DNA of 27,156 nt from a virus. Below are positions 20,950 through 27,156 of this stretch, piece after piece. Made by a program: the position numbers and the translations under genes. How positions within the stretch are numbered: the first letter of the stretch is position 1; every line of letters begins with the position of its first letter. The stretch covers positions 1-27,156 of the IMG/VR virus record IMGVR_UViG_3300047444_000220, one strand, 5' to 3'. The notes below the pieces were generated by a model, which was not told where the DNA came from, did not search any database, and saw nothing but the letters and a program-made list of their open reading frames with translations.

Positions 20950-22240
20950 GCATCCATCGCGCACCATCGAGAGCGCCGCAGACTTTCTGAAGCGCACCGA
21001 CTGGATCTTCCAGCCTGCGATCAAGTCGCAGTTCGGCGCGATCAGCCTCGATCAACTGGATGACCAGGGCGAGCAATTCGACTGGCTGGTGAGCGGCTGG
21101 TTATCGTCGCGCGACCGCTCGGTCCTGGCGGGCGATAGCAAGGCGGGCAAGTCGTTCTTCGCCCTGGAGTTGGCGCTCTGCATTGCGTTCGGCCGCAACC
21201 TGTTTGGGCTGACGACAAAGCGGGGCGGGGTCATCTATCAAGTCGGCGAAGGGCTGCTGGGGTTCAAAAAGAGGTTGCGCGCGTGGCGCGCCTACTACGG
21301 CGTCGAGTACAGCCGCGAGGTGCCCTTCCGGCTGTTTCAACGCGGCATCGATATTTACAGGGATTTCGACCAAGTCGATGCACTGATCGAGGAGATCAAG
21401 GCGCACGCCGCGACCTTCGACGTTCCGCTGCGCCTCGTCGTCATCGACACGCTTGCCAAAGCCTCGATCGGAGCCGACGAAAACGCGGTCAAGGACATGG
21501 GCATCGTCATGCGCAACGTCGAGCGCATCAATGAGAAGACCGGCTGTCACGTCATGCTCGTTCACCACTTGACCAAGGGCGGGATCGTGCGCGGCTCGAC
21601 CAGCGTCTACGCGGGCGTCGATCAGGTGCTGCTGCTCGACCGCGATGAGGCAACGAAGCTCCGCACGCTGACCTTGGACAAGCAGAAGGACGACGTGGAT
21701 GGCATCAGCCTCACCTTCGAACTGGAGGATGTCGTGCTCGGCACCGACGAGGACGGCCGACAGGTGACCTCATGCGTGTGCATGGCAGTCTCCGAGAAAG
21801 ACCGCATCCGCCGCGAGGAGGAGCTTCGCGGCATGCGGATGAGTGTCGCGCTGGAGGTGTTCGTCAAGGCGTTTTTCGAAGCCGAGAAGCGCTACGGCAT
21901 GCCCATCCCGCCTGGGCTCGACGTGCCTCCGCACACTCGCAGCGTGGCCGCCTGGGAGGATGTCAAGCGGGTCTACGGCGACATGGCGCCGAGCGACGCC
22001 CTCACTCGCGAGGAGCTTACGACCGAGGAGCAGGAGAAGCGCGAGACAAAGCACTTTGAGATGCTGAAGAGCCGCCTGCGCCGGTTCCGCGAGGAATCGA
22101 TCGCCCATGGCATCCTGCGGTTCGACACGTTGGACAACCGCGCCTACTGCTGGTGGACTGGGAAGCCGCTGCGTGCGTTCCCGCAGACCCAGCCGCAGCC
22201 GAAGCCTGACATCGACCCGGCCTACGCAGTGGAGTTCTGA
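20927..22240 (+). CDS. RepA/RecA-fold replicative helicase
   Basis: I start at the ATG at 20927 because AGAGG lies about seven bases upstream; a TTG two codons earlier is weaker. The 437-residue protein has Walker A at 69-76 (GDSKAGKS), E108 in VGEGLLGFKKR, Walker B at 170-174 (LVVID) and the following VMLVHHLTKGG block, as in the RSF1010 RepA / AAA_25 family of ring-forming DNA helicases. The C-terminal third (about 320-437) is a helical and winged-type extension with TREELTTEEQEKRETKHFEM. Next to the primase it forms a minimal helicase-primase pair; no DNA polymerase is seen in the window. Confidence 0.8.
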   Translation: MGAPLVLEHPSRTIESAADFLKRTDWIFQPAIKSQFGAISLDQLDDQGEQFDWLVSGWLSSRDRSVLAGDSKAGKSFFALELALCIAFGRNLFGLTTKRGGVIYQVGEGLLGFKKRLRAWRAYYGVEYSREVPFRLFQRGIDIYRDFDQVDALIEEIKAHAATFDVPLRLVVIDTLAKASIGADENAVKDMGIVMRNVERINEKTGCHVMLVHHLTKGGIVRGSTSVYAGVDQVLLLDRDEATKLRTLTLDKQKDDVDGISLTFELEDVVLGTDEDGRQVTSCVCMAVSEKDRIRREEELRGMRMSVALEVFVKAFFEAEKRYGMPIPPGLDVPPHTRSVAAWEDVKRVYGDMAPSDALTREELTTEEQEKRETKHFEMLKSRLRRFREESIAHGILRFDTLDNRAYCWWTGKPLRAFPQTQPQPKPDIDPAYAVEF

Positions 22241-22422
22241 TGACCCCAGAACAGCTAGAGCGCCGCAACGCGGCGATCCGCAGGGCCTGGGACGATCCGC
22301 TGCGGCTCGCCCTAGCTCGTAAGCCAAATTCAAAACGGTCGTCCCAAGAGGCCTATAACGCCTACTATCGAGAGTACCGACGACGAAAGAGACAGGAGAG
22401 CATTGATGGCGAACGACCGTGA
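22240..22422 (+). CDS. Small basic protein, 60 aa
   Basis: The start shares a base with the helicase stop (TGATG). The product is very basic and helical: TPEQLERRNAAIRRAWDDPL, then SQEAYNAYYREYRRRKRQES. The repeated Tyr-Arg spacing (AYNAYYREYRRR) could bind nucleic acid. The endolysin start overlaps its 3' end by 17 bases. Function unknown; a DNA- or RNA-binding accessory is the simplest guess. Confidence 0.5.
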   Translation: MTPEQLERRNAAIRRAWDDPLRLALARKPNSKRSSQEAYNAYYREYRRRKRQESIDGERP

Positions 22423-23104
22423 CCCGAACTTCAACCCGGACTTCAACCCCAATCTGGAGCACCCGCCGATATCGCCGCCGGTCGAGGAGGTGATCCCGGA
22501 GCCGGTCGAGCCGCTTTACGACCGCAAGAAGTTCTTCGACGCGGTCAGGGCGAACCCGTTCGGCGGCAACCTGACCCAGAGCCAAGTCGATGGGATGGAG
22601 TATCTGCTTGAGATGTGGGAGGAGCACTTCGCTCCCAACAATCCGAACGACGGAACGATGTGGCTCGCCTACTGTCTGGCGACTGCTTATCACGAGACGG
22701 CAGCGACGATGCAGCCGATTGCGGAGTATGGGAAAGGAAGCGGCAAGTCCTACGGCGCACCGGCTGGCCCTTACGGCAATTGCTACTACGGTCGCGGTTA
22801 CGTCCAGTTGACGTGGGAGGACAACTACAAGAAGGGCGAAAATATCCTCCGCGACAAGTACGCGCATCCGGCGTGCGAGATTCATCAATACCCCGACAAG
22901 CTGCTGGCGGAGGCCGAAGCTTCGGCTCTGATTCTATTCGATGGCTCGGTTTACGGCTGGTTCACGGGCGCGAGCCTGCAACAATATTTCAGTAAGGCGA
23001 AGGGCATCGAAGATGCCTACAACGCCCGCCGCGTGATCAATGGCACCGATAAGGCCGATTTGATCAAGGGCTACTACAACAATTTCAAGGCAGCGCTTGC
23101 ATGA
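22406..23104 (+). CDS. Endolysin, GH19 chitinase-like glycoside hydrolase
   Basis: I start at ATG 22406, seven bases after AGGAG; a TTG one codon earlier is weaker. After a Pro-rich N-terminus (to about residue 36) the catalytic domain holds MWLAYCLATAYHETAATMQP with the likely catalytic E97, and YYGRGYVQLTW (127-137), the substrate-groove signature of GH19 lysozyme-like enzymes. The C-terminus is NGTDKADLIKGYYNNFKAAL. It hydrolyses peptidoglycan at the end of infection. No signal peptide or membrane anchor is seen, so export needs the holin encoded next (ATGA overlap at 23101). A second copy of its C-terminal coding sequence occurs at 23625-23687 as a broken fragment. Confidence 0.8.
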   Translation: MANDRDPNFNPDFNPNLEHPPISPPVEEVIPEPVEPLYDRKKFFDAVRANPFGGNLTQSQVDGMEYLLEMWEEHFAPNNPNDGTMWLAYCLATAYHETAATMQPIAEYGKGSGKSYGAPAGPYGNCYYGRGYVQLTWEDNYKKGENILRDKYAHPACEIHQYPDKLLAEAEASALILFDGSVYGWFTGASLQQYFSKAKGIEDAYNARRVINGTDKADLIKGYYNNFKAALA

Positions 23105-23412
23105 GCCCGTCTGATCTAGTCATTCCTCCTCCGATTCCTAAGCTATCGGATTATCCGGCTGCTATCGGCATTGTGGTAGCGATCATAGGAACGATTGTTT
23201 TATTGTTTGTAGCTGGTCGGTTCGATCCTAGTGGCGGCACGCTCACTATTTCTTTGTTGATTGTTCTTGCTTTTATCGGCGCGGTTATTTTTACCCTATT
23301 TTTCACCGTGCCAACTGACGAGATCACCGCAGCGGTGATTGGTGGATTAGTTGCGTCGTTCGGTGCAGTCGTCGCGTTTTGGTTGAGCAGAAAGTCGGAG
23401 CCACCGAAATGA
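23101..23412 (+). CDS. Holin-like membrane protein A, 103 aa (AT-rich)
   Basis: The start ATG overlaps the endolysin stop (ATGA). Three hydrophobic spans are at about residues 19-38, 48-69 and 75-95, followed by a charged tail (SRKSEPPK), a class I holin-like layout. The last span and tail resemble those of the second holin-like protein at 23728 (VVAFWLSRKSEPP against VVVFWFGRGGDPP). By hand count the 180 bases at 23161-23340 are about 46% GC, while a 60-base stretch of holin B is 67%, so this gene probably came from elsewhere. It may release the endolysin; pairing with the second protein as holin and antiholin is also possible. Confidence 0.6.
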   Translation: MSPSDLVIPPPIPKLSDYPAAIGIVVAIIGTIVLLFVAGRFDPSGGTLTISLLIVLAFIGAVIFTLFFTVPTDEITAAVIGGLVASFGAVVAFWLSRKSEPPK

Positions 23413-23582
23413 GCACGCTTGGCATCATCCTCCTCATTCTTCTTGTTGTTGTTCTGCTCGGCGGGATTGGAGGGCCATATGTTGGTGCCCCCTACGGCTA
23501 CGGTTTTGGTCACGGTGGTGTTGGGGTTGTTGGTGTGCTTATTATTGTACTTTTGGTTCTTCTGGTAATGAGAGTGATATGA
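23409..23582 (+). CDS. DUF3309-like small membrane protein, 57 aa
   Basis: The start ATG is in an ATGA overlap with holin A. The product has two hydrophobic spans (STLGIILLILLVVVLLGG; VGVVGVLIIVLLVLLVM) around a Gly/Tyr-rich loop (GPYVGAPYGYGFGHGGVG). The layout matches the DUF3309 family of tiny membrane proteins that are common in alphaproteobacteria and have no known function. Its place inside a lysis cassette, coupled to a holin, is unusual and suggests a part in lysis timing or a host gene picked up by the phage. The DNA here is also AT- and T-richer than neighbours. Confidence 0.55.
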   Translation: MSTLGIILLILLVVVLLGGIGGPYVGAPYGYGFGHGGVGVVGVLIIVLLVLLVMRVI

Positions 23583-23687
23583 GCGACCGAATCTACAAGA
23601 ACGCGGACGGGATTCGGCGCACCCGGGACCGACAAGGCTGATCTTATTGCCGGTTACTATTGGGCCTTCAAAGCCGGGCTCGCGTGA
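23579..23687 (+). pseudogene. Broken 3' end of a second endolysin gene
   Basis: In the frame that ends with the stop at 23685-23687, bases 23625-23684 encode GTDKADLIAGYYWAFKAGLA. Sixteen of these 20 residues equal the C-terminus of the intact endolysin (GTDKADLIKGYYNNFKAALA). Upstream of 23625 the similarity is lost in this frame, and a stop (TGA at 23580) precedes it. The DNA differs at most silent positions, so it is the relic of a diverged second endolysin, not a fresh duplicate. The ATG of an ATGA overlap at 23579 opens a 20-codon frame (MSDRIYKNADGIRRTRDRQG) through the fragment in another frame; it may be translated by coupling but is unlikely to be functional. Confidence 0.65.
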
Positions 23688-23715
23688 GGTAAACCTAACC
23701 GCGCAGAGGGGCGCG

Positions 23716-23742
23716 CAGGAGCGCCCAATGGAAGCGCTCCTG
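23716..23742 (+). promoter_or_regulatory. Perfect 9-bp hairpin over the holin B ribosome binding site and start
   Basis: CAGGAGCGC (23716-23724) and GCGCTCCTG (23734-23742) are perfect inverted copies. In the mRNA the AGGAG Shine-Dalgarno would be buried in the stem, and the ATG start codon (23728-23730) would lie in the nine-base loop. This is the arrangement expected of a translational block on holin synthesis, comparable in idea to the structure at the start of lambda S. Folding is inferred from the sequence. Confidence 0.6.
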
Positions 23743-24036
23743 GCGAGCGGTTACCCGGTCGGACTTGTCGTCGTCGCGACGGCGCTCATCGTGCTGGCGC
23801 TCTTGGCGGCGATGGCGTTCATCGGCAAGCGCGCCCCTGCCTTGGCGACGCCGACCGTGGTCATCAGCCTGTTCATGCTGATCACATTCATCGTCGTCGT
23901 TGTCTTCTCGACGCTGCGCGTCCTGCCCGAGTCAAAGACGAGCGAACTGCTGCTGGGCGCGCTGATCTCGACCTTTACGACCGTCGTCGTGTTCTGGTTC
24001 GGCCGTGGCGGCGATCCGCCCGGCGACAACCACTAG
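23728..24036 (+). CDS. Holin-like membrane protein B, 102 aa
   Basis: I start at the ATG at 23728, which has AGGAG seven bases upstream; a longer frame from 23647 overlaps the endolysin relic. Three hydrophobic spans are at about 9-32, 43-63 and 73-91, with a short charged tail (GRGGDPPGDNH), again a class I holin-like layout. It is a paralogue in layout and C-terminus of holin A but GC-rich like the rest of the genome. It follows the relic of an endolysin, as a native endolysin-holin pair would. It probably formed pores for the lost endolysin and may now act with, or against, holin A. Confidence 0.6.
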   Translation: MEALLASGYPVGLVVVATALIVLALLAAMAFIGKRAPALATPTVVISLFMLITFIVVVVFSTLRVLPESKTSELLLGALISTFTTVVVFWFGRGGDPPGDNH

Positions 24037-24061
24037 GCCCCTTTAGGCGAAAAGGTTGTCG
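24024..24061. terminator. Candidate bidirectional terminator between convergent genes
   Basis: CGACAACC (24024-24031) and GGTTGTCG (24054-24061) form a perfect 8-bp inverted repeat spanning the six-base gap between the plus-strand holin B gene and the minus-strand gene ending at 24043. The loop is 22 bases and no T-tract is present on either side, so a classical rho-independent terminator is doubtful; position is the main support. Confidence 0.3.
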
Positions 24062-24513
24062 AACCGGCCGTGCGTCTTGGCTGGGACTTCGTCCGCTGCG
24101 TCGTCTCTGACAAGGGCAACGCATTTCGTCCCGTCGCGCTTGATGCGCCAGCGTCGGTATCGGTGGGCGACGCCATCGGTGGCGGTAGCGATCACCACCT
24201 CGACGCGGTCGTCAGCCTCAGATGGCCGTGGTCCGAGTCCGGGGAGGTAGGATTTCCGCTTGATCATCCACGCCTCGCTTAGGAACGAGTAGCGGGTGAT
24301 GCGATGCTGGCGGATCAACTGCCGCACTCCCTGCGCCGCGAAGTCCTTGGACTCGTCGCCGCAGAATGGTGTGGCGACCAAGATGTCGCCGTCGGGACCG
24401 CAAAGGTGGAAGAGCGGCAGTAGCTCATCCTGGCCGCTATCAACGAGGACATGTTGTGCGTGCGTTTCGGCTGCGTCGAGCAGCGCCGTGAGGGCATCAG
24501 CGTCTGAGTTCAT
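24043..24513 (-). CDS. Hypothetical phage protein, 156 aa
   Basis: I chose the ATG at 24513 rather than a TTG at 24534. The product is mixed alpha/beta: ALTALLDAAETHAQHVLVDS, LLPLFHLCGPDGDILVATPF, then DFAAQGVRQLIRQHRITRYS and VEVVIATATDGVAHRYRRWR. I recall similar unnamed proteins in phages but no function. It is the last gene of the minus-strand unit beginning with the SNF2-type helicase and overlaps the preceding gene by 17 bases. Confidence 0.5.
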   Translation of the reverse strand: MNSDADALTALLDAAETHAQHVLVDSGQDELLPLFHLCGPDGDILVATPFCGDESKDFAAQGVRQLIRQHRITRYSFLSEAWMIKRKSYLPGLGPRPSEADDRVEVVIATATDGVAHRYRRWRIKRDGTKCVALVRDDAADEVPAKTHGRFDNLFA

Positions 24514-24700
24514 TGGCAAGCAGTTCCTCTTCAAAAGCGCTGATGGCGCTGCGCACCTCTGAGGCGAAAGTCGCCACCAGCGTGGCGCGCAAGGTCACGG
24601 CGAGATAGGCGATTTGTATCTCCAGGTCAGCGACGCGCGCTGAGTCGCCGCGCAGGAGCGCAGCATCGCGCAGGCCGAGCAGTCGTTCCAGTTCGGTCAT
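24497..24700 (-). CDS. Hypothetical coiled-coil protein, 67 aa
   Basis: Start in an ATGA overlap at 24698-24700. The product is one long amphipathic helical run: TELERLLGLRDAALLRGDSA, RVADLEIQIAYLAVTLRATL, EVRSAISAFEEELLANELRR. Heptad-like Leu spacing suggests a short coiled coil and oligomer formation. No known family. It follows the 23-aa membrane peptide. Confidence 0.5.
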   Translation of the reverse strand: MTELERLLGLRDAALLRGDSARVADLEIQIAYLAVTLRATLVATFASEVRSAISAFEEELLANELRR

Positions 24701-24768
24701 TTGGTCACCCAGGCGTAGAGGGTGAAGATCGCCACGAGGAGGATGACGATGGCGAGACTACGATCCAT
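24697..24768 (-). CDS. 23-aa single-span membrane peptide
   Basis: From the ATG at 24768, with GGAG eight bases upstream, the frame encodes MDRSLAIVILLVAIFTLYAW followed by VTK. It is almost entirely one hydrophobic span with a charged N-terminus and a Lys end. The stop overlaps the next start (ATGA) and the start overlaps the previous gene by 11 bases, which supports real translation. A longer frame to 24894 lies inside the preceding gene and is rejected. Such micro-proteins are often missed; the function is unknown. Confidence 0.45.
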   Translation of the reverse strand: MDRSLAIVILLVAIFTLYAWVTK

Positions 24769-24964
24769 CGCCTGCTCCTTCCTTTGGTTCTCGCGCTTGA
24801 TCGATGTCGCGGCCGACCAGGGCCTTGGCCTTGGAGAGCACGCCGAGCGCTTCGCCGATCGCGAAGGCGGTATCAGGCGATACACCATCGACATTGCGGT
24901 AGAGGGTCGCCACCTCGTCGTAGGCGCGCTGGAGCGTGGCGTGGATTTCAGGAAGGTCAGTCAT
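24758..24964 (-). CDS. Hypothetical helical protein, 68 aa
   Basis: Start at the ATG of an ATGA overlap (24964). The product TDLPEIHATLQRAYDEVATL followed by YRNVDGVSPDTAFAIGEALG and VLSKAKALVGRDIDQ is helical throughout with a polar tail. No motif is recognised. It is embedded in a chain of small coupled genes downstream of the SNF2-type helicase. Confidence 0.5.
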   Translation of the reverse strand: MTDLPEIHATLQRAYDEVATLYRNVDGVSPDTAFAIGEALGVLSKAKALVGRDIDQAREPKEGAGDGS

Positions 24965-25149
24965 CGCTTGTCTCCTGGCTTTGCGGGCGGTTGCCGGGCG
25001 TAGGCGCCGGTGCGGTTGAGAACGGCCCGGATCGTCGCCGGATTGACGCCATAGGAGCGCGCCAGCCCCATGATCGACCACTCTGGCGAGAGAAAGAGAA
25101 CGCGGATTTCGTCCGCCTCCTCCGGGGTGAGGTCAGGCTTGCGGCTCAC
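24961..25149 (-). CDS. Small helix-turn-helix protein, 62 aa
   Basis: The GTG start lies in a GTGA overlap with the preceding stop; a longer frame to 25326 is inside the neighbour. Residues 7-50 (LTPEEADEIRVLFLSPEWS, IMGLARSYGVNPATIRAVLN) form a helix-turn-helix of the type seen in sigma region 4 and small transposase-like DNA-binding domains. The tail is basic and Pro-rich. It could be a regulator of the operon or a DNA-binding accessory. Confidence 0.55.
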   Translation of the reverse strand: MSRKPDLTPEEADEIRVLFLSPEWSIMGLARSYGVNPATIRAVLNRTGAYARQPPAKPGDKR

Positions 25150-25433
25150 AACCGCACCACCTTGCCATTGTCCATGACGTGGGTGGCGAGCGCGTCGAGA
25201 TCGTGCTCGATAGCTTCCAGCCACACGAGGCGCTGGCGGTGTTCCTCCATTGCCTCGCCAATGGGATCGAGGCGGTGCATGGGCGTAGCCAGTTGGGTGT
25301 AATAGTCGCGGCCATTCGGGGCACATTCGGCGAGCGCCTTGTGCGCCCCCTGCACCGCCTTGAGGGCGGCGTAGTAGCCGTCGAACAGCGCCTGAGCGTC
25401 GGTCCCGTTGATGTGGATCGTCGGCTTGCGCAT
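25146..25433 (-). CDS. Hypothetical protein, 95 aa
   Basis: I start at the ATG at 25433, which shares a base with the upstream stop (TGATG). The product begins with a short strand (RKPTIHINGTDAQALFDGYY) and then is helical (AALKAVQGAHKALAECAPNG; DPIGEAMEEHRQRLVWLEAI). I do not recognise it. The coupling to both neighbours argues for translation. Confidence 0.5.
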   Translation of the reverse strand: MRKPTIHINGTDAQALFDGYYAALKAVQGAHKALAECAPNGRDYYTQLATPMHRLDPIGEAMEEHRQRLVWLEAIEHDLDALATHVMDNGKVVRL

Positions 25434-25657
25434 CACTCGGCCTCGCTGTCTTCCCAGAGAATGAACTCCAGCGAGCGACGCGCGTCGTCCCATGAGAACG
25501 CGCCGTCTCGCATCAGGAGCTTGATCAGAGGTTCCTGTGGCGCGCCCTCCCAGACGTAGTCGAGCTTGTTCAGGATTGCGCGGGCGTCGTCCGCCAGCAT
25601 CTTGGTGCGGTCGCGCTCCTCAAGGTCGCGCTTGGCGGCATCGAAAGGATCACTCAT
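25433..25657 (-). CDS. Hypothetical acidic helical protein, 74 aa
   Basis: The start is in an ATGA overlap with the upstream gene. The product (SDPFDAAKRDLEERDRTKML, ADDARAILNKLDYVWEGAPQ, FSWDDARRSLEFILWEDSEA) is highly charged and helical with an acidic end. No family is recognised. Confidence 0.5.
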   Translation of the reverse strand: MSDPFDAAKRDLEERDRTKMLADDARAILNKLDYVWEGAPQEPLIKLLMRDGAFSWDDARRSLEFILWEDSEAE

Positions 25658-26025
25658 CGCGTCCCCTTCGCCCGGTAGGCCTTGCGCGCGTAGTCGAGCG
25701 CGCAGTGCAGCGTGCAGAACGGTTTGTAGCCGCCCCAGTAGCTCTCGCCGTCCCAGACTTCGCGGTAGAGGTGGAGCGTCGGCTCGTCGGTGTAGAAGCG
25801 CGGATCGGGTGCTTCCCGAGGGCGGAATGCAGCGCGCTTCTCCTGCTCCGCGATAAATTCCGCTTTAAGCGGGAGCCGACTCGCGGAGCCGGTTTTGACC
25901 ACAATGCCGTTGCCGGTGTAGCGCGGCATCGGCTGGCCCTGGGGCCAGCGCACCTCTTCGGTGTGGAGGTCGCGCTTGCCATAGCTGGCGCCGCAATGGA
26001 CGCAGACGGGGCGAGGGGCGGTCAT
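25654..26025 (-). CDS. Zinc-binding protein, 123 aa
   Basis: Cysteines C8/C11 (CVHC) at the start and C104/C108 (FCTLHC) near the end could form one zinc site that closes the domain, with H107 as another ligand. In between there is a loop region (RWPQGQPMPRYTGNGIVVKT) and an aromatic strand region (EPTLHLYREVWDGESYWGGY). The end pattern FCTLHCALDYARKAY resembles TRASH/MYM-like small zinc motifs. The start overlaps the SNF2-type helicase stop by ATGA. The role is unknown. Confidence 0.5.
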   Translation of the reverse strand: MTAPRPVCVHCGASYGKRDLHTEEVRWPQGQPMPRYTGNGIVVKTGSASRLPLKAEFIAEQEKRAAFRPREAPDPRFYTDEPTLHLYREVWDGESYWGGYKPFCTLHCALDYARKAYRAKGTR

Positions 26026-27156
26026 GCCGCACCCCCTTTGATTGTCGCCAGCAATTCGGCCGGAATCTGCCGCTGATATTTGATCGCCAACACTCGGCCG
26101 TACTGGGCCTGCTTCGCGGTCAACGTCTCGCGGGATGCGAGGCTATGGCCGAAGTCAGTGTCGATCTTCGAAAAACCATAGCCATCGAGCGCCTGTGCGC
26201 CGTCGCATAGGCCAGCAACGATTTGCAGGGCCGTGTGGATGGCTGCGATCTGTTCCTGGGTCAATGCGCCGGGCTGCGCGCCGTTGCCGCCTACGGGCTT
26301 CTGTGGGGCCGCAGGAGGTGCGACAGGCGCGTCGAGGAGCTTGGGCGCTGCGAGCGCGCCGTCTGCGTCCTTGCTGTCCACCGCTGCGGAGATCACGTCC
26401 ATCTTGTCCACGATGATCTGGGCCATCCGGCAGTCGAGCGAGCCGTCGAGCACGAGGTGCTGCACGAGGACCGAATCGGTCTGCCCGATGCGGTGGCAGC
26501 GATCCTCGGCCTGGGCGAGGTTGCCCGGCACCCAGTCAAGCTCGGCGAACACGACGTGGCTGGCTGCGGTGAGGGTGATGCCGACGCCTGCCGCCTGGAT
26601 GCCGCCAATGAACACGCGGATGGCTTTGTCGTTCTGGAAGGCGTGGACCGCCGCATCGCGGTTCGGCAAGGTCATCCGGCCGTCGAACTTGACGACGCCG
26701 AACTCGGCCAGGGCCTCGGCAAGCTGGTCGATGACATCGTGGTGGTGGGCCATCACGACGATCTTCTGGCCATTCTCCAGGCAGTCGCGGACGTGGGCGA
26801 CGACCTGATCGACCTTGGCCAGCGCGACCTCGTGGCGGACCTTCGAAGTCTCGGTGAAGGCGGCCATGTTGGCTTGGTTCAGTTCCTCGACGGCTTTCCG
26901 GTACGCGGCGGGATCATTCCAGGTCTTCGCCTCGTCGGCGCGAGCGCGCAGCGCGGTCAGCCGATCCTCGGTGGCGCGGACGACTTGCGTCTCGTGCTCG
27001 ACGGCGGCCTTCTCAGCCGCACTCAGGGCTTGGAACGCGATCACCGAACGGCGCTTGGCCGGAAGCTCGGTCAGCACATCCGCCTTCATCCGGCGGACCA
27101 TGATCGAAGCGCGGAGCTTGGCCTGAAGCTCATCGAGGTTGCTGGCGCCCGAAGTG
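26022..27156 (-). CDS. SNF2-family helicase, C-terminal part (5' end cut by window)
   Basis: The frame is open to the right edge and the part before the internal ATG at 27101 reads SNLDELQAKLRASIMVRRMK, the typical lead-in to the second RecA lobe, so the start lies beyond the window. Motifs seen: TELPAKRRSVIAF, KIVVMAHHHDVIDQLAEAL, GGIQAAGVGITLTAASHVVF (motif V) and LAQAEDRCHRIGQ (motif VI). The C-terminal extension after a Pro-rich linker has DGYGFSKIDTDFGHSLA, a small domain I know from phage SNF2-type helicases. The N-terminal lobe with Walker A is outside the window. It is an ATP-dependent DNA translocase, probably for replication or recombination of phage DNA. Confidence 0.75.
   Translation of the reverse strand, partial: TSGASNLDELQAKLRASIMVRRMKADVLTELPAKRRSVIAFQALSAAEKAAVEHETQVVRATEDRLTALRARADEAKTWNDPAAYRKAVEELNQANMAAFTETSKVRHEVALAKVDQVVAHVRDCLENGQKIVVMAHHHDVIDQLAEALAEFGVVKFDGRMTLPNRDAAVHAFQNDKAIRVFIGGIQAAGVGITLTAASHVVFAELDWVPGNLAQAEDRCHRIGQTDSVLVQHLVLDGSLDCRMAQIIVDKMDVISAAVDSKDADGALAAPKLLDAPVAPPAAPQKPVGGNGAQPGALTQEQIAAIHTALQIVAGLCDGAQALDGYGFSKIDTDFGHSLASRETLTAKQAQYGRVLAIKYQRQIPAELLATIKGGAA

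Follow-up and report, generated by a model that had tools for sequence, protein, structure and literature searches.

This lysis region raised the question of how a virus could come to carry two holin-like genes with the tail of an endolysin gene between them. The analysed window was a viral contig of 27,156 bases, and the lysis region was located at 22406-24036. An earlier note had read its gene order as endolysin, holin A, DUF3309, endolysin 3' relic and holin B. All five elements were present in this order (Table 1), and 4-base overlaps, taken from the coordinates, linked the endolysin, holin-like A and DUF3309 genes. The same arrangement was found at 99.98% identity in IMGVR_UViG_3300046516_000941 and 3300046529_000572, the latter of which starts inside holin-like A. 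Because these two further IMG/VR contigs carried it, so that three contigs agreed, an assembly artefact was ruled out. The possibility that the relic marks an intron or an RNA element was likewise rejected, as no Rfam match was found.

Table 1. Positions of the genes and gene remnants of the lysis region in the window
Feature	Position	Strand	Observation
Small upstream gene, 60 aa, probable native left flank	22240..22422	+	homologue just 5' of the endolysin in syntenic L106
Intact endolysin, GH19-like	22406..23104	+	first ~5 codons probably native, remainder apparently foreign
Holin-like protein A, 103 aa, 3 predicted TM	23101..23412	+	A family near endolysins elsewhere
DUF3309 small membrane protein, 57 aa	23409..23582	+	PF11752 above cut-off
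Gene X 5' fragment, 15 codons MSDRIYKNADGIRRT	23579..23623	+	matches X N-termini
Probable native endolysin 3' relic, last 20 codons and stop	23624..23687	+	tail similarity
Probable native spacer	23688..23727	+	core 23708-23726 GGGGCGCGCAGGAGCGCCC; hairpin, ribosome-binding site in loop
Holin-like protein B, 102 aa, 3 helices in model	23728..24036	+	homologous to A
Convergent gene, probable native right flank	24043..24507	-	53% homologue in the same place in L106

The relic was compared with the intact endolysin. Its translation (23625-23687) was GTDKADLIAGYYWAFKAGLA followed by a stop codon, and 16 of the 20 residues were identical to the C-terminus of the window endolysin, which confirmed the earlier count. 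The best match reached by chance in 300 shuffles of 23413-27156 was 8/20, and the best relic-like match in window positions 1-22400 was 7/20. A profile of endolysin tails also found the relic, with an E value of 4e-11. At the codon level, with the stop included, 17 codons had the same meaning in the two tails (6 identical and 11 silently different), in agreement with the claim that the DNA differs at most silent sites. The relic matched the tails of the endolysins in L008, L010 and L011 at 17/20 residues and 50/63 bases, compared to 41/63 bases for the window's own endolysin. This meant that the match extended to homologous endolysins and that the relic was the tail of a diverged homologue, as had been proposed. 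The tail of L106, a syntenic relative described below, gave 12/20 residues when counted by eye. Since the relic was closer to L008, L010 and L011 than to L106, the native endolysin was probably not L106-like at its end.

The relic had been assigned to the whole span 23579-23687. The endolysin assignment held for 23624-23687, but 23579-23623 was the N-terminus of another gene, here called gene X. This fragment, MSDRIYKNADGIRRT, matched MSERRRVYRDSDGIRRT in L018 and VERKTVYKDADGVRRT in L109. Gene X encodes about 100 aa and belongs to PHROG 3982 (function unknown). It was present in 50 loci and was located directly 5' of an endolysin in 33 of them. The start of the fragment (X') forms a stop-start overlap with DUF3309. 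Similarity to X continued up to 23623 and similarity to the endolysin began at 23624, and one base at most was common to both. Judged from these alignments, the relic is X' fused to an endolysin tail. Full-length X was not found elsewhere in the window, and a search with the exact X pattern returned this virus as the sole match. Another reading considered was that 23579-23623 encodes the N-terminus of a second, internally deleted endolysin. This was rejected because endolysins of the family start with M(P)YDRK.. and the fragment is gene X.

The DUF3309 gene and the start of X were 91.7% identical between the window and L007 (IMGVR_UViG_3300046816_000259), a contig that stops 8 codons into X. 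At L007:4520-4548, a 9-bp difference abolishes the DUF3309 stop and the X start seen in the window. As this difference takes away its start, X may also be dead in L007.

The left joint was located within the start of the intact endolysin. The DNA of this gene showed 81-83% identity with L003-L011, which are phages otherwise unlike the window virus, and this similarity set in sharply at 22421, 15 bases inside the gene. To the left of 22421, 'AGGAGA..TGATGGCGA' aligned with the corresponding L106 sequence at the ribosome-binding site and start. The left joint was the less certain of the two, being placed by approximately 35 aligned bases around the ribosome-binding site and by the synteny of one short gene. 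A single run in L043 covered the endolysin, A and the start of DUF3309 (66% over 973 bp). GC content fell to 48.7-48.9% in A and DUF3309 only, and it was also low in the DUF3309 gene of L007 (49.7%). The lysis cassette was a mosaic, with sharp similarity breaks at 22421 and 23623/23624 and with neighbours that had different relatives.

The window endolysin matched the PHROG 181 endolysin family (3.5e-19), and its similarity to known families placed it among GH19-type phage endolysins. Its match to Pfam Glyco_hydro_19 was 15 bits, below the cut-off of 25.5, and the match to solved GH19 chitinases was weak. Matches were found in 295 phage records among 50,697, all below 60%. In the case of bacterial genomes, the only matches were distant and came from Sedimenticola MAGs. 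Its intact reading frame suggested that the foreign endolysin is functional.

The native context of the locus was identified with L105-L108, which were obtained by searching with the AAA ATPase gene upstream in the window. In L106, a 62-kb contig, the AAA gene was 84% identical to that of the window. The order in L106 was the upstream gene, one endolysin (61%), the spacer, one membrane protein of 63 aa and the convergent gene (53%), with no second cassette. The 60-aa upstream gene of the window matched its L106 homologue at 46% over 39 aa (E 2e-5). Between the relic and B, the spacer AGAGGGGCGCGCAGGAGCGCCC differed from the L106 spacer by one base, and the DNA of the relic and spacer together aligned with L106 at 70% over 104 bp (E 9e-6). 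The relic, the spacer and both flanks look native, because syntenic L106 has them with a single endolysin and a near-identical spacer. The membrane gene after the spacer was different in L106 and the window. Because the two genomes differ there, this gene has apparently been exchanged as well, in one or the other. In L007, a membrane gene of the L106 type was found where the window has A.

The core pattern of the spacer was present in only 5 viral contigs, namely two of this virus, L106 and two in which it lies inside an unrelated gene. A role as a wider conserved element was rejected because the last two have the pattern within an unrelated coding gene. The spacer hairpin (window 23708-23760; L106 9405-9429) was conserved and carries the ribosome-binding site in the loop. 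In the window, this site would be buried if early codons of holin-like B took part in an alternative hairpin, with a weak z of -1.55 (23685-23760).

The two holin-like proteins had been described as sharing a three-span layout. This was seen in the three predicted TM segments of A and in the three helices of the B model (11-35, 42-65 and 70-95; pLDDT 73). The relation went beyond a like layout, since A and B aligned at 34% over 56 residues (E 1e-11) and were thus homologous. They had also been described as sharply different in GC. The difference was real, but the hand counts of 46 and 67 were replaced by computed values of 48.7% for A and 64.7% for B. A and B belonged to different subtypes, and the closest relative of B was the gene directly after the endolysin in L061. 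Among the loci examined with the family profile, only this virus had two members of the A/B family. No homologues of A or B were found among the 50,697 known phage records, and B was not found at high identity outside this virus.

Both proteins had the size of holins and three hydrophobic helices each, within the 1-3 spans of holins. They lie next to an endolysin, with A overlapping it, and genes of the A type follow endolysins in many contigs. Neither matched a holin or any named family above cut-off in Pfam, PHROGs or NCBIfam, and naming them by families or by fold was abandoned after the family libraries and the fold search gave no usable match. From position, size and the three predicted helices, we infer that A and B are putative holins. 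In relatives such as L014, the endolysin is often followed by several small membrane genes, and having more than one holin-like gene is therefore unremarkable as such.

The A family was found near endolysins in 50 other contigs, and in 29 of these 50 the next gene was DUF3309, which again overlapped A by 4 bases. The DUF3309 gene matched Pfam PF11752 with 26.2 bits against a cut-off of 22.3, and a search of viral contigs gave at least one confirmed DUF3309 locus among the matches listed. The recurrent coupling of A and DUF3309 suggests that the widespread DUF3309 family may have a role in lysis. No paper was found in a literature search for DUF3309 together with phage.

Comparison established the mosaic and its joints, as well as the native context and the fact that A and B are homologous, and one exchange that put a foreign segment of approximately 1.2 kb (22421-23623) into the native unit is the probable history. 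The native unit beforehand would have consisted of the upstream gene, an endolysin, the spacer, holin-like B and the convergent gene. The foreign segment would have brought the endolysin from codon 6 to its stop, together with holin-like A, DUF3309 and X codons 1-15. Both joints would lie within the native endolysin, one within its first few codons and the other 20 codons short of the stop. The ribosome-binding site and start used by the foreign endolysin would then be the native ones, and the native endolysin would be left only as a 3' tail before the native spacer and holin-like B. A and B would presumably be made from one transcript, and lysis might depend on the first hole-former to trigger or on complexes of the two; the earlier note had suggested that such a pair could set lysis timing in a new way.

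The earlier note had proposed that a foreign endolysin-holin-DUF3309 module was placed over a native endolysin-holin pair and that both holin-like genes were left. The relatives that it predicted were found. L043, L045, L039 and others had only endolysin, A and DUF3309, and L061 had only the endolysin with a B-type gene 17 bp after it. Insertion ahead of and partly over the native pair was borne out in that the relic side looks native and A was apparently brought in. The boundaries had to be refined, since the interior of the native endolysin would have been replaced and the segment includes X'. An illegitimate or short-homology exchange had also been suggested, and the joints are essentially blunt and look illegitimate. 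The window encodes a RecE-like exonuclease, which is compatible with the virus's own recombination system, though the joints share little sequence. Neither an intermediate nor the exact donor was found.

The main rival, which we regard as unlikely, is that two full cassettes stood in tandem (endolysin1-A-DUF3309-X-endolysin2-spacer-B) and that approximately 0.8-0.9 kb was later deleted, between codon 15 of X and a point 20 codons short of the end of endolysin2. The expected outcome is X followed by a tail, given that X directly precedes the endolysin in most of its loci, and the overlap of X' with DUF3309 is what an intact gene would show. However, the native upstream gene in both L106 and the window is the 60-aa gene and not X. 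Two full endolysins were not found at any locus; the tail profile found two tails only in the window and in L064 and L065. This history also requires two steps.

L064 and L065 were of interest in their own right. At L064:5448-6100 and L065:1340-1990, an HNH_3 endonuclease gene on the minus strand separates an endolysin whose 3' end is recoded from the native 3' end that was displaced, and 32 bp are duplicated, at ARKIINGTDKA. In the window, a double-strand cut by an HNH homing endonuclease might have opened the native endolysin at its conserved NGTDKA codons, with repair joining in the foreign cassette. This reading is favoured by the HNH_3 gene of L064 and L065 (E 4.7e-9), which stands with a recoded endolysin tail in front of the native tail that was displaced, again at the NGTDKA codons. 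We consider it very improbable, as no HNH gene was found near the window cassette, L064 and L065 are distant phages with about 45% endolysin identity, and the position would be shared by accident roughly 1 in 20 times (32 bp of a gene of ~585 bp). The position common to L064, L065 and the window gives a weak hint that breaks recur at the endolysin 3' end. That the NGTDKA codons are a recurrent break site of homing endonucleases, where repair drives lysis-cassette exchange and leaves tails in independent lineages, is a quite doubtful extension. If one cassette had been duplicated locally and had then diverged and decayed, with no transfer involved, the homology of A and B would be explained, but this is hardly credible, because the spacer and tail are of the native type, other phages share endolysin1, DUF3309 and X' at 82-92% DNA identity, and A and B differ in subtype and sharply in GC.

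With one exchange as the preferred history, the lysis locus of this soil phage is plainly a fossil of the usual swapping of genes among phages and not a new kind of system. Natural exchange of endolysin and holin between lactococcal P335 and prophage bIL286 has been described (PMC9371310), and there too the endolysin was exchanged as a block with neighbouring lysis genes. That swap was clean and between homologous flanks, whereas the window has illegitimate-looking joints, a native tail left behind and both holin-like genes kept. Several holins in one phage are known from P1 (LydA/LydC/LydD), SPP1 and Actinomyces phage Av-1 (PMC9025707). These likewise have more than one holin-like gene; in contrast, the two putative holins of the window are homologous, come from different sources and stand with a visible relic. 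Mycobacteriophage endolysins, in the account cited in PMC9371310, show intragenic mosaicism for which illegitimate recombination was proposed. As cited there, the endolysin gene is likewise a place of illegitimate joints, but in the window the joints lie at the two ends of the gene and not between domains. The fossil of a lysis-cassette exchange can here be read at the level of bases, with both joints, the native context and a donor type that can be named, and the recipient holin-like gene was kept. A and B form a homologous holin-like pair of different origin, which might compete, poison each other or add up.

On the same AAA backbone, a holin-like A gene was observed directly after an unrelated endolysin at L108:5624-6384. 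We take this endolysin, from its sequence, to be M15-peptidase-like. In L108, the endolysin appears to have been swapped for an unrelated one, with A kept.
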